Origin: Hyphomicrobiales bacterium
GTDB lineage: Bacteria > Pseudomonadota > Alphaproteobacteria > Rhizobiales > Rhizobiaceae
NCBI GenBank assembly: GCA_900466575.1
Contig: UBMP01000004.1
Coordinates: forward strand, 124,001-188,000
DNA length: 64,000 nucleotides
Direction: 5' to 3'
The notes beneath the pieces are model-generated. The model ran no database searches and was not told the origin of the DNA. It saw only the letters and a list, made by a program, of their open reading frames with translations. Made by a program: the position numbers and the translations under genes. Shown one piece after another: positions 28,820 to 34,941 of the stretch (positions are counted from its first letter, which is position 1; each line of letters starts with the position of its first letter).

Positions 28820-28975
28820 TCAGGCGACCTTGTCGGCCGTCTTGGCGGGCTCAACGCCCTTCTTCTTCGGGTCGTTTGCGCACATAAGTGCGGCAGCCAG
28901 AACGGCCTTCAGGCCGACCGGCTTGTATTGATCGACCAGATTGATGTTGATGTTGCTCGCGGCCTTGTCAGCCAT
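28820..28975 (-). CDS. Short hypothetical protein (51 aa)
   Basis: A 51-codon frame encodes MADKAASNININLVDQYK, a middle helix PVGLKAVLAAALMCAN and a Lys-rich end DPKKKGVEPAKTADKVA. AAGGA is seven bases before the ATG. The hydrophobic helix is too short for a membrane span by itself. I believe it is a conserved rhizobial microprotein of unknown function, but cannot name a family. It is divergent from the cysS leader region. Confidence 0.6.
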   Translation of the reverse strand: MADKAASNININLVDQYKPVGLKAVLAAALMCANDPKKKGVEPAKTADKVA

Positions 28976-29306
28976 GGTTGTTTCCTTTGCCCCATTTGGA
29001 CGTCGTTATTATGGTGCGCGCCCTCTCGCTGCAAATTGCGGCGGAAAGACGACACATATTCTACGTCAGTTTTGACTTAAGTAAACTGATCGAAATCAAA
29101 CCTACATTTCGATCCCGGCGGCAGCTTGACGGAATGATGGCGAGCGGCAATAAAAGGCGCCATGAAAACGGATCGCTGCATCATTTGCGGAAAGATTATC
29201 GACTAGCGCCTCGCTGGTCCGGCCGTTTTCGTCTCTCGACAAAAAAGAGTTCAAAACGCCCGGCCAGCCGGGTGGATATGCAATTTTTGCCTTTCGGGAG
29301 AAGGAC
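28976..29306 (+). promoter_or_regulatory. 331-base upstream region of cysS
   Basis: This stretch contains no long gene. It holds a candidate 14-codon reading frame with two Cys codons (29162-29206) and, between that and cysS, pairable segments: GCTGG and CCGG (29212-29222) can pair with CCGGCCAGC (about 29257-29266), while CCCGG-CCAG-CCGGG can form a competing hairpin. This is compatible with attenuation but a T-run terminator is not clear. Confidence 0.4.
29162..29206 (+). CDS. Candidate leader peptide with Cys codons upstream of cysS
   Basis: The frame encodes [20 protein letters not shown] precedes the ATG by about five bases. Two of 14 codons are UGC (Cys), and the gene downstream (cysS at 29307) makes Cys-tRNA. 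This suggests control by translation speed at Cys codons, as in amino-acid leader peptides. Translation and function are inferences from position, codon content and ribosome binding site. Confidence 0.4.
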
Positions 29307-30761
29307 ATGGCGGATACGCCGACCTTGAAATTCTACAATACGCTCGCCCGCGAAAAGCAGGTTTTCGAGCCCATCGACGCCGAAAACGTGCGGCTCTATG
29401 TCTGCGGCCCGACCGTTTATGATTACGCCCATATAGGCAATGCGCGGCCGGCGATCGTCTTCGACGTTCTCTTCCGGCTGCTGCGCCATGTTTATGGGGA
29501 AAATCATGTCACCTATGTCCGCAACATCACCGATGTGGACGACAAGATCAACGCGCGCGCGCTTCGCGACTTCCCGGACCTCAAATTGAACCAGGCGATT
29601 CGCCGCGTGACGGAGAAAACCGAGACGCAATATGTCGCCGATGTCGCCACGCTCGGCTGCCTCAACCCGACGGTCCAGCCGCGTGCCACGGAAAACATCG
29701 ACGGCATGATCGCCATCGCGCAATCGCTGATCGACCGAGGCCACGCTTATGTCGCTACAGGGCATGAGGGCAGGGAAGTTCTCTTCTCCGTGCCCTCCAT
29801 GGATCATTATGGCGAGCTTTCCAAGCGCAAGCTGGAAGACCAGCAGGCCGGCGCGCGCATCGCCGTCGAGGCGCACAAGAAGAGCCCCGCCGATTTCGTC
29901 CTCTGGAAGGAAAGCGCTGCCGACCAGCCGGGCTGGGACGCCAGCTTCACCGTCGATGGCGAGCAGATCGCGATCTACGGCCGCCCCGGCTGGCATATCG
30001 AATGCTCCGCCATGTCCGACCGCTTCCTGTGGGAGGAGATCAAGGACAAGCTGTCGCCCAAGGCCAAGGCACGCCCGCACCAGTTCGACATCCACGGCGG
30101 CGGCCTCGACCTCATCTTCCCCCATCATGAAAACGAAATCGCCCAATCCTGCTGCGCCTTCGACACCGGCGTCATGGCCAATATCTGGATGCACAACGGC
30201 TTCCTGCAGGTCGAGGGCAAGAAGATGTCCAAGTCCGAGGGCAATTTCGTCACGATCAACGAGCTGCTGGAGACGGAAAAATTCGGCGGCCGGAAATGGC
30301 CGGGCGAAGTGCTGCGTCTAGCCATGCTGATGACGCATTATCGCGAGCCGATCGATTTCAGCGTGAAGCGGCTGGAGGAGGCGGAAGCCCTTCTCCGAAA
30401 GTGGCCGGCCGGGCTGGAGCCGCAGGGTGTGGCTCAGCCGTCCGTTCTCGATGCGCTTGCAGATGACCTCAATACGGTCGCCGCCGTGCAGGCGCTCCAC
30501 GCGTTGGCTACTGCCGGTGCGCCGGAATTCGCTGCGAGCGCCGCTCTTCTCGGCGTTTTGCCGAAAAAGGTCAGCGTCTCGGACGCCCTTGCCGAAAGCG
30601 TGGAAGCCCTCGTGCAACTGCGCCTCGAAATGCTGAAGGCCAAGAACTTCACTGAGGCCGACCGCCTGCGCGATCAACTGGCGTCTCAAGGCATTCAGCT
30701 AAAGGATTCGAAAGATTCGACAACCGGGGAGCGGGTGACGACATGGGAAGTGAAGCGCTAG
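29307..30761 (+). CDS. cysS: Cysteinyl-tRNA synthetase
   Basis: The class I synthetase that charges tRNA-Cys. The 484-residue protein has the zinc ligand region [10 protein letters not shown], the HIGH-like motif HIGN (residues 42-45), the second zinc region [12 protein letters not shown] and [10 protein letters not shown], and KMSKS (306-310). The length and C-terminal domain are normal. GGGAGAAGGA lies just before the ATG. Its 3' end overlaps the start of a GFA-family gene by 19 bases, so the two are in one operon. Confidence 0.98.
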
Positions 30762-31213
30762 ATTACCATTCCGGCGGCTGCCAATGCGGCGCGGTCCGTT
30801 TCCGCGCCGGCCATCTCGGGCGTCCGTCGATCTGTCATTGCCGCATGTGCCAGAAGGCGTTCGGGTCGTTCTTCGGGGCCTTCGTGACCGCCGATCAGGC
30901 GCATCTCACATGGACGCGCGGTCAGCCGACATGGTTCCGCTCGTCCAAACAGGTGCATCGCGGCTTCTGCGAGAAATGCGGCACACCGCTGGTCTATCGT
31001 CACCCGGAAGGCATCGAACTCGCCATCGGCGCTTTCGACCATCCGGAGCTGTTCGAGCCGCAGGTTCAGGTCAATCATTCCAAACGCCTGCCGTGGATCG
31101 ACCGGCTCTTCGACAAGCCGCCCTATGAAAGCCCCGGAATGACCGAATTCTTCGCCAGTATAGAAAGCTGGCAGCATCCGGATCATGACACGGAGAAATG
31201 GCCCGAGGATTGA
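30743..31213 (+). CDS. GFA-family zinc protein 1
   Basis: The 156-residue protein belongs to the glutathione-dependent formaldehyde-activating enzyme (GFA/CENP-V) family. The zinc sites are complete: [10 protein letters not shown] (CxC), [10 protein letters not shown] (CxxCxxC type) and FCEKCGTPL (CxxC). The founder member converts formaldehyde and glutathione to S-hydroxymethylglutathione, but most paralogs have no proven activity. It overlaps the cysS 3' end and is followed by a membrane microprotein and two more GFA genes. Confidence 0.9.
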
Positions 31214-31223
31214 AGGGAGAACG

Positions 31224-31355
31224 ATGATGACCGAACAGAAACCCGGATCGGACGGCAAGCTGCCGAAATGGTTCGTCTATGGCCTGGTGGCCAAGATGGT
31301 TTTCCTCGCAGCGGTCGTCATCTTCGTTTTGTGGTGGGCTGGGATTTTCAGGTGA
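31224..31355 (+). CDS. Membrane microprotein between GFA genes (43 aa)
   Basis: A 43-codon frame encodes a polar start MMTEQKPGSDGKLPKW and one membrane helix (about residues 17-41, FVYGLVAKMVFLAAVVIFVL then WWAGIF). AAGGGAG is spaced seven bases from the second ATG (31227). The stop is 28 bases before the next GFA start and the preceding GFA stop is 10 bases upstream, so it is inside the operon. The role is unknown; a small membrane anchor or partner is possible. Confidence 0.7.
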   Translation: MMTEQKPGSDGKLPKWFVYGLVAKMVFLAAVVIFVLWWAGIFR

Positions 31356-31382
31356 GTGCCGTTTGGCGGGAGTGCAAACATC

Positions 31383-31858
31383 ATGTCTGAGACCATCTAC
31401 ACCGGCGGATGCCAATGCGGCGCGATCCGCTTTCGCGCCGAGGGCGACCTGAAGGATGCCTCGATCTGCCATTGCCGCATGTGCCAGAAGGCGTTCGGCA
31501 GTTTCTACGCGCCGCTTGCCTCCGTGCGCGGGCTGAATTTCAGTTGGACGCGCGGCGCACCGAAACATTTCCAGTCGTCCAACCTCGTGCGCCGGGGCTT
31601 CTGCGAGGCGTGCGGGACGCCGCTGACCTATGAGGCCCCCGACGGAATGGCGATCGCCATGGGGGCGTTCGACGAGCCGGAGCGCATCGTGCCGACGCTG
31701 CAATACGGCACGGAAGGAAAGATTTCCTACGTCGATCATCTGGCCGAACTGCCGGGGCATCCGACGGAGGAAGACGTTGCGGCACTGCCCTTCCTCGCCG
31801 AGCTGAAATCTTTCCAGCATCCTGATCACGATACGGATCGTTGGCCGGAGGCGCAGTC

Positions 31859-31862
<4 letters not shown>
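31383..31862 (+). CDS. GFA-family zinc protein 2
   Basis: The 159-residue paralog retains all zinc-binding cysteines ([29 protein letters not shown]) and is closest in sequence to the first copy (shared SFxAPL/FGAF region, TRG and HPDHDT near the end). An upstream in-frame GTG at 31356 is less likely than the ATG. Its stop overlaps the ATG of the third copy by four bases. Substrate unknown. Confidence 0.9.
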
Positions 31863-33296
<1,434 letters not shown>

Positions 33297-33297
<1 letters not shown>

Positions 33298-33321
33298 GGA
33301 GCCCCGAAATTCGGGACAATG
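33297..33321 (+). promoter_or_regulatory. Shine-Dalgarno, hairpin and start codon of cimA
   Basis: AGGAG (33297-33301) lies 17 bases before the ATG, too far for normal initiation, but CCCGA-AAT-TCGGG (33303-33315) lies between and could fold so that the effective spacing becomes about four bases. It overlaps the pip stop. If the hairpin is absent, the ATG at 33319 would be poorly served. Confidence 0.4.
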
Positions 33322-34941
33322 ACCATGGCAAAAGAACGCATCTACCTCTTCGACACGACCCTTCGCGACGGGCAGCAGACGCCCGGCGTGGACTTTTCCG
33401 TCGAGGACAAGATTGCGATTGCCAACATGCTGGATGCCTTCGGCATCGACTATGTCGAGGGCGGCTATCCGGGCGCGAACCCGACCGACACGGCCTTTTT
33501 TCAGAAGAAGCGCACCGGCCGCGCCGGCTTCGTCGCCTTCGGCATGACCAAGCGCGCCGGCGTTTCCGTGTCCAACGATCCGGGCCTCAACGAACTCCTG
33601 CGCGCCAAGTCCGACCATATCTGTTTCGTCGCCAAGAGCTGGGACTATCACGTCAAAGTCGCGCTCGGCTGCACGAATGAGGAGAACCTCGAAAGCATCG
33701 ATCTCTCGGTGAAGGCCGCAATCGAAGCTGGCAAGGGCGCGATGATCGATTGCGAGCACTTCTTCGATGGCTACAAGGCAAACCCTGCTTACGCGCTCGC
33801 CTGCGCCAAAACCGCTTATGACGCCGGCGCGCGCTGGATCGTGCTCTGCGACACCAATGGCGGCACGCAGCCGTCCGAAATCCGCGAGATCGTCGCCGCT
33901 GTGATCGCGGCCGGTGTTCCCGGCGACCGGCTCGGCATTCATGCGCATAACGACACCGGGCAGGCGGTTGCCAATTCGCTGGCCGCCGTCGAGGCCGGCG
34001 TGCGCCAGATCCAGGGCACGCTGAACGGCATCGGCGAGCGCTGCGGCAACGCCAATCTCGTCACCATCATCCCGACGCTGGTGCTGAAGCCCGCCTATAA
34101 CGCGCGCTTCGAAACAGGCATCGACCGCGAGGCGCTGCAGGGTCTCACCAAACTCAGCCACGATTTCGACGAGCTCTTGAACCGTTCCCCGGAAACGCAG
34201 GCCCCTTATGTCGGTTCCTCGGCCTTCGCCACCAAGGCTGGCATCCACGCTTCCGCACTGCTGAAAGACCCGCGCACCTATGAACATGTCGAGCCGGAAA
34301 CGGTCGGCAATCTGCGCAAGGTCATGGTCTCCGATCAGGGCGGAAAGTCGAATTTCATCAACGCGCTGAAGCGCCGAGGGATCGAGGTCGGCAAGGACGA
34401 TCCGCGCCTCGACACGCTGATCACCATCGTTAAGGAGCGCGAGGCGACCGGCTATGCCTACGAGGGCGCGGATGCGAGCTTCGAACTGCTCGCCCGCCGC
34501 ACGCTCGGCTCCGTGCCGGAGTTCTTTCAGGTCGACAGCTTCCGCGTCATGGTCGAGCGCCGCTTCGACGCCAACGGCAACCTCAAGACCGTCTCGGAAG
34601 CCGTGGTGAAGACGGTGATCGATGGCGAGACGGTCATGTCGGTCGCCGAAGGCCACGGCCCGGTCAACGCGCTCGATATCGCCATCCGCAAGGATCTCGG
34701 CCGCTACCAGCCCGAAATCGCCGATCTCGAACTGGTGGACTACAAGGTCCGTATCCTCAACGGCGGCACCGAAGCCATCACCCGCGTGCTCATCGAGTCC
34801 TCAGACGACACGGGAGCAAGATGGTGGACGGTCGGCGTGTCCGACAACATCATTGATGCATCGTTCCAGGCGCTGATGGACAGTATCGTCTATAAGCTGA
34901 TGAAGAACCGGGATATGGCTGGCAAGGTGGCGGCGGAGTGA
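33319..34941 (+). CDS. cimA: Citramalate synthase
   Basis: The enzyme condenses pyruvate and acetyl-CoA to (R)-citramalate, a threonine-independent entry to isoleucine synthesis. The 540-residue protein has the HMGL-like TIM barrel with RDGQQTPG at the start, HAHNDTGQA and LNGIGERCGNANL, and the LeuA-type C-terminal regulatory domain. It belongs to the long CimA branch (TIGR00977) and not to 2-isopropylmalate synthase. The next in-frame ATG is at 33325. It is the last gene of the cysS-GFA-pip run; a palindromic repeat follows. Confidence 0.93.
   Translation: MTMAKERIYLFDTTLRDGQQTPGVDFSVEDKIAIANMLDAFGIDYVEGGYPGANPTDTAFFQKKRTGRAGFVAFGMTKRAGVSVSNDPGLNELLRAKSDHICFVAKSWDYHVKVALGCTNEENLESIDLSVKAAIEAGKGAMIDCEHFFDGYKANPAYALACAKTAYDAGARWIVLCDTNGGTQPSEIREIVAAVIAAGVPGDRLGIHAHNDTGQAVANSLAAVEAGVRQIQGTLNGIGERCGNANLVTIIPTLVLKPAYNARFETGIDREALQGLTKLSHDFDELLNRSPETQAPYVGSSAFATKAGIHASALLKDPRTYEHVEPETVGNLRKVMVSDQGGKSNFINALKRRGIEVGKDDPRLDTLITIVKEREATGYAYEGADASFELLARRTLGSVPEFFQVDSFRVMVERRFDANGNLKTVSEAVVKTVIDGETVMSVAEGHGPVNALDIAIRKDLGRYQPEIADLELVDYKVRILNGGTEAITRVLIESSDDTGARWWTVGVSDNIIDASFQALMDSIVYKLMKNRDMAGKVAAE

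Follow-up and report, generated by a model that had tools for sequence, protein, structure and literature searches.

A short open reading frame (ORF) upstream of cysS, the gene for cysteinyl-tRNA synthetase, is in our judgement probably the leader of a ribosome-mediated attenuator, whose peptide would read the supply of both charged tRNA-Cys and charged tRNA-Ile. It would read the two amino acids because the gene run that it heads extends from cysteinyl-tRNA synthetase to citramalate synthase (cimA). Slightly less firmly, we favour the more general view of a leaderless two-input sensor (tRNA-Cys for cysS, tRNA-Ile for cimA) within one old alphaproteobacterial gene cluster, with codons coming and going together with the genes served. 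The support comes from conservation of the ORF and its codons, from covarying, mutually exclusive RNA stems and from Ile codons that track cimA. The case studied in detail lies in a 64,000-nt stretch of a Rhizobiaceae genome, hereafter the window.

Cysteine and isoleucine codons in the leader ORF

The leader, its predicted promoter and the first and last genes of the run are as follows.

29126-29154, + strand: predicted promoter, TTGACG (29126-29131), 17 nt, AATAAA (29149-29154); geometry kept in relatives
29162-29206, + strand: leader ORF, ATG at 29162, stop codon TAG at 29204-29206; 14 amino acids; kept across Hyphomicrobiales
29307-30761, + strand: cysS, cysteinyl-tRNA synthetase (TIGR00435, 393 bits, cut-off 340)
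33319-34941, + strand: cimA, citramalate synthase (TIGR00977, 621 bits, cut-off 450), last gene of the co-directional run headed by cysS

The preliminary description of this region had reported a 14-codon frame with two Cys codons, 100 nt before cysS. Its account of the frame is correct: the ORF runs from the ATG at 29162 to the TAG ending at 29206, codons 6 and 9 are both TGC, and 100 nt separate the stop codon from the start of cysS, placed at 29307 by TIGR00435; codons 7, 8, 12 and 13 encode Ile. The 'good ribosome binding site' ascribed to the frame has to be given up. The AAAAGG upstream of the ATG overlaps the −10 box of the predicted promoter, which is preceded at a distance of 17 nt by TTGACG in an arrangement that relatives share. 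Since the −10 box ends 7 nt upstream of the ATG, transcription is predicted to start at or next to the start codon and, judging from the sequence, the leader mRNA is probably leaderless. On the − strand, a frame of ∼50 codons (MADKAASNININLVDQ...) at 28821-28976 diverges from the leader; a promoter-like site lies at 29085-29058.

In the family to which the window belongs, 166 of 297 genomes were matched by the leader region as sole DNA query. This region had no match in a plasmid collection or among the covariance models of Rfam 15, where two chance matches with E-values up to 5 fell below the gathering score. Searches with cysS provided gene positions, along with many upstream regions, from 150 genomes of the order and 58 of the class. 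A leader detector that relies on promoter geometry and ATG position only, and is blind to amino acids, returned from relatives such peptides as MKTVICIICRKIIR, MKTSFAICGICIIG, MKTATPSRAICICGISIIS, MNGFATICGIICG and MTTAAKTIIPTIIICS. Among its matches with a score of at least 9.5 and cimA adjacent to cysS, all 111 contain Cys, and 110 of the 111 have at least two Ile within the last nine residues. Genomes with the core motif include Rhizobium leguminosarum, Ensifer adhaerens, Mesorhizobium, Shinella, Phyllobacterium and Hoeflea.

The composition of 132 leaders differs sharply from that of the adjoining cysS genes: Cys makes up 12.0% of leader residues versus 1.0% in cysS, and Ile 25.9% versus 4.8%. 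The share of ATT among Ile codons is 66% in leaders and 20% in cysS. Among the 120 leaders with Ile at codon −3, 114 use ATT there, and Ile is also found at positions −4 to −10. The leaders are 9-20 codons long. Their stop codon is TAG in 116 of 132 cases, and the conserved GCTAGC around it forms one arm of stem 1:2 described below. One leader (L099) has Ile and lacks Cys.

Mutually exclusive stems and the proposed expression platform

The RNA elements between the end of the leader and cysS are listed below.

29201-29208, + strand: segment 1, GACUAGCG, last codon plus stop; pairs with 29212-29219; stem 1:2 covaries
29212-29229, + strand: segment 2, CGCUGGUCCGGCCGUUUU, partner of segment 1 or segment 3
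29232-29239, + strand: segment 2b, UCUCUCGA, on the loop side of segment 2; complementary to the cysS Shine-Dalgarno region at 29294-29301
29253-29268, + strand: segment 3, AAAACGCCCGGCCAGC; pairs with 29213-29229; stem 2:3 covaries
29259-29272, + strand: hairpin 3:4, CCCGG-CCAG-CCGGG, alternative to stem 2:3; no U-run right after it
29294-29304, + strand: cysS Shine-Dalgarno region, UCGGGAGAAGG

The two competing stems proposed in the preliminary description can indeed form, one between 29213-29229 and 29253-29268 and the other as the local CCCGG/CCGGG hairpin at 29259-29272. The stem that had been overlooked is 1:2, in which GACUAGCG (29201-29208) pairs with CGCUGGUC (29212-29219) across the stop codon. 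In an alignment of 77 leaders (A1), stem 1:2 (GNCUAGCG with CGCUGGNC) is paired in 89.8% of cells and shows 23 double changes versus 8.6 in shuffles; an A at column 8 (last codon GAC or CAC) is always accompanied by a U at column 29. For stem 2:3 the corresponding values are 83.4% and 56 double changes versus 31. Both stems score above shuffled and slid controls and, because segment 2 is common to them, they are mutually exclusive. Comparison of the relatives' cysS upstream regions thus found the ORF present in close relatives, its Cys codons kept and its stems covarying. Attenuation of cysS through a Cys-codon leader, as suggested earlier, has strong support in this conservation and covariation; what that suggestion had missed are the Ile codons and the link to cimA.

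Stem 2:3 is stronger than stem 1:2 in 77 of 77 leaders (mean −24.0 versus −10.3 kcal/mol), and its modelled mean probability is 0.66 with all segments free and 0.91 with segment 1 hidden. A ribosome that stalls at the last Ile codons, or at Cys codons late in the leader, would in the model produce the latter state. Cys is confined to positions upstream of the last four codons in 76 of 132 leaders, which is too far away for a stalled ribosome to cover segment 1; there, a stall at Cys would have to act by letting stem 2:3 win over stem 1:2.

In the mechanism that we propose, transcription would begin at the ATG or right beside it, and translation of the leader would proceed without a Shine-Dalgarno site. 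With both tRNAs charged, the ribosome would reach the TAG stop and rest over the 5′ half of segment 2, spoiling stem 2:3, and segments 2b and 3 would be free to hide the cysS start (in Rhizobiaceae) or to form hairpin 3:4. With tRNA-Cys or tRNA-Ile in short supply, the ribosome would stall before or on segment 1; stem 1:2 would be blocked or outcompeted, stem 2:3 would form, and cysS and the genes behind it would be expressed. We infer translation of the leader, ribosome stalling, the direction of control, the expression platform and a single transcript from cysS to cimA.

As to this platform, segment 2b fits the cysS Shine-Dalgarno of its own species better than those of other species in 46 of 70 cases in Rhizobiaceae (p = 3e-5), and three control segments gave no such own-versus-swapped excess. 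This sequence comparison suggests translational control of cysS in Rhizobiaceae; an effect on cimA might be exerted via polarity or coupling. No signal of segment 2b/Shine-Dalgarno covariation was seen in families other than Rhizobiaceae, so that the platform there may differ or be transcriptional. Two further candidates were rejected. Hairpin 3:4 as a conserved terminator or sequestor has an energy no better than shuffled across relatives (its pairing with the Shine-Dalgarno is slightly above chance, p = 0.03), and a general thermodynamic switch at the cysS start, modelled with ribosome positions masked, is weak overall and gives no effect in the window's own sequence.

It is possible, if not what we expect, that the leader controls the whole operon through intrinsic or Rho-dependent termination of transcription rather than by masking the start of cysS. 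With cimA several genes downstream, its control is more readily understood at the level of transcription; the motif predicted in Rhodobacterales has a U-run terminator (PMC8632094), and some relatives (e.g. L009 and L235) have a hairpin followed by a T-rich tail. The window itself, however, has no intrinsic terminator (hairpin plus U-run) on its + strand, in agreement with the earlier remark that no clear terminator T-run is visible, hairpin 3:4 is of unremarkable stability, and the Shine-Dalgarno covariation in Rhizobiaceae points to control at translation.

Isoleucine codons and the cysS-cimA gene neighbourhood

Citramalate synthase makes an isoleucine precursor from pyruvate and is an entry to isoleucine synthesis. 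In the window, cysS is followed on the same strand by three genes, a prolyl aminopeptidase gene and cimA, and adjacency of cysS and cimA is found in most sampled Hyphomicrobiales and in many other Alphaproteobacteria. The three genes between cysS and the prolyl aminopeptidase gene (30743-32341) are similar to one another and share a GGCQCGAVR...CHCRMCQK motif; the first of them has no NCBIfam match.

In an evenly drawn sample of the order, a leader with both Ile and Cys is present in 79 of the 88 genomes in which cimA is adjacent, and in none of the 12 in which it is not; these adjacency counts exclude genomes in which cysS or cimA lies at a contig end (e.g. G029). Shuffled upstream regions contain an ORF with Cys and two or more Ile among its final nine residues in 1.9% of cases, as against the 79 of 88 real ones, and the leader is thus not a product of chance. 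Some genomes with adjacent cimA yielded no leader; among the nine such misses in the even sample, two (L064 and L088) have a slightly longer leader. With all genomes pooled the counts are 141 of 157 with adjacent cimA and 3 of 41 without, though the pooled set was partly chosen by leader similarity and the even sample therefore gives the fairer figure. The three pooled exceptions have the look of chance ORFs.

Genomes that have lost cimA, or carry it elsewhere, have a Cys-only leader or none that was detected. We had predicted beforehand that Ile-less leaders would be those of genomes without adjacent cimA, and on testing the prediction held. Genomes G021 and G022 have no cimA, and their leaders read MKTMICCCC and MNTSLANCCRC; four further species of the genus of G021, also without cimA, have MKTTICCCC (twice), MKTTICTCC and MKLTICLCC. 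In G393 and G423, from another family, cimA is elsewhere in the genome and the cysS leaders are Cys-only. By the cysS tree, Rhizobiaceae gained Cys-only leaders on at least two occasions; G393/G423 represent one further origin. No leader could be detected in most of the other cimA-less Rhizobiaceae, and since 18 of these form one group, the genome counts are not independent. A large group of cimA-less Rhizobiaceae (L186-L206) has a more divergent cysS and an upstream region with no detectable leader.

The converse arrangement was met once, elsewhere in the class: in G450 a standalone cimA (L387, L395) is preceded by an Ile-only leader, MNIINAIITKGLIISG. Upstream of cysS in the same genome (L179, L394) there is a Cys-rich frame, MTCRCCRKNTTESLA, and then a GC hairpin with a T-rich tail, which is terminator-like. 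Genome G444 (L152), without cimA, has a tandem-Cys frame (MARNTVNFETAAARRGGPRWCCA) before cysS that is reminiscent of the cysS uORF of Rhodobacterales. At L393:2640-2921 (G423), and at the same place in L392 (G393), a short ORF similar to the C-terminal part of CysS stands before the separated cimA. It may be left over from the former cysS-cimA neighbourhood or encode a small protein of its own; the idea that these genomes have a second complete cysS next to cimA was considered and rejected, this short ORF being all that is there.

We think it unlikely that the leader is a plain Cys attenuator for cysS, with Ile codons retained solely so that ATT-ATT-NGC-TAG leaves the RNA ahead of segment 1 unstructured, or for some other RNA role. 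The use of ATT and not ATC at codon −3 (114 of 120) does point to a constraint at the level of nucleotides or decoding speed, and a Cys-only cysS uORF has been predicted in Rhodobacterales (PMC8632094). The leader is also remodelled as a whole where cimA is gone: loss of the Ile codons is everywhere accompanied by a change in the RNA of the leader region, which makes codon loss and RNA change inseparable. Yet other AT-rich codons would serve an RNA role equally well, Ile extends to positions −4 to −10, and Ile content tracks cimA adjacency, persisting without Cys before a standalone cimA.

A leader peptide as a rule serves a single pathway; here the codon make-up follows the downstream genes. 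As it does so across many families and with at least three losses, evolution may be said to have carried out the codon-swap experiment. If the dual reading of Cys and Ile is true, a single tiny ORF would provide a two-input sensor, a reason would be at hand why a tRNA synthetase gene and an isoleucine gene stay together, and laboratory rhizobia would offer an easily testable regulatory element.

Relation to known leaders

In the enterobacterial leaders thrL and ilvL, one peptide reads several amino acids of one branched pathway; here, by comparison, one leader would serve a tRNA synthetase together with a gene from a pathway unrelated to it.

The motif uORFC-8-2 is a predicted cysS attenuator of Rhodobacterales only, a uORF with Cys codons for which ribosome stalling was proposed; its tandem Cys codons, usually 14 and 15, lie inside the first stem, a 3′ U-run terminator follows, and Ile and cimA are not mentioned (PMC8632094). 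The two systems have in common a Cys-codon uORF before cysS in Alphaproteobacteria. In the window, unlike in uORFC-8-2, the Cys codons (6 and 9) are scattered, combined with Ile and located upstream of the stems, with no tandem Cys in the first stem, and the Hyphomicrobiales leader differs further in having no U-run, in its exclusive stems across the stop codon and in its tie to cimA.

The preliminary description had taken a Cys-codon leader for cysS in a rhizobium to be new. For Hyphomicrobiales this stands, in that the literature searched yielded no cysS or cimA leader and no leader peptide sequences, whereas a Cys-codon uORF before cysS as such had already been predicted in Rhodobacterales (PMC8632094). 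A leader with Cys and Ile codons tied to cysS and cimA was found neither in the literature searched nor in Rfam. With Cys-only attenuation of cysS predicted before and multi-amino-acid leaders being classic, the new part, as far as the literature searched tells, appears to be the combination of Cys and Ile for cysS and cimA.

Leaderless polycysteine ORFs with contiguous Cys codons attenuate a downstream operon in mycobacteria (Canestrari 2020, doi 10.1111/mmi.14498, as cited in PMC9031893). They are likewise short leaderless Cys ORFs, and differ in their contiguous Cys only, in the operons concerned and in belonging to another phylum. In Sinorhizobium (S.) meliloti, Ribo-seq has revealed trpL, a leaderless ORF of 14 codons (PMC10117765), and our leader resembles it as a 14-codon ORF, here predicted to be leaderless, 5′ of an amino-acid gene in a rhizobium. 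Tryptophan attenuation, and action in trans by both peptide and RNA, are on the other hand particular to trpL/peTrpL (PMC10117765, PMC7298713).

That the leader encodes a functional CxxC peptide (e.g. metal- or redox-binding, or acting in trans) and is no ribosome sensor seems very improbable and was rejected: the window's CIIC resembles a CxxC motif, and a leader peptide can act in trans too, as S. meliloti peTrpL indicates (PMC7298713), but the number and spacing of Cys vary too much among leaders (CIIC, CIC, CGIC, CCCC or a single C), codon identities, stop position and exclusive stems are what stays stable, and 119 of the 119 core-motif matches retrieved from named genomes lie upstream of cysS.
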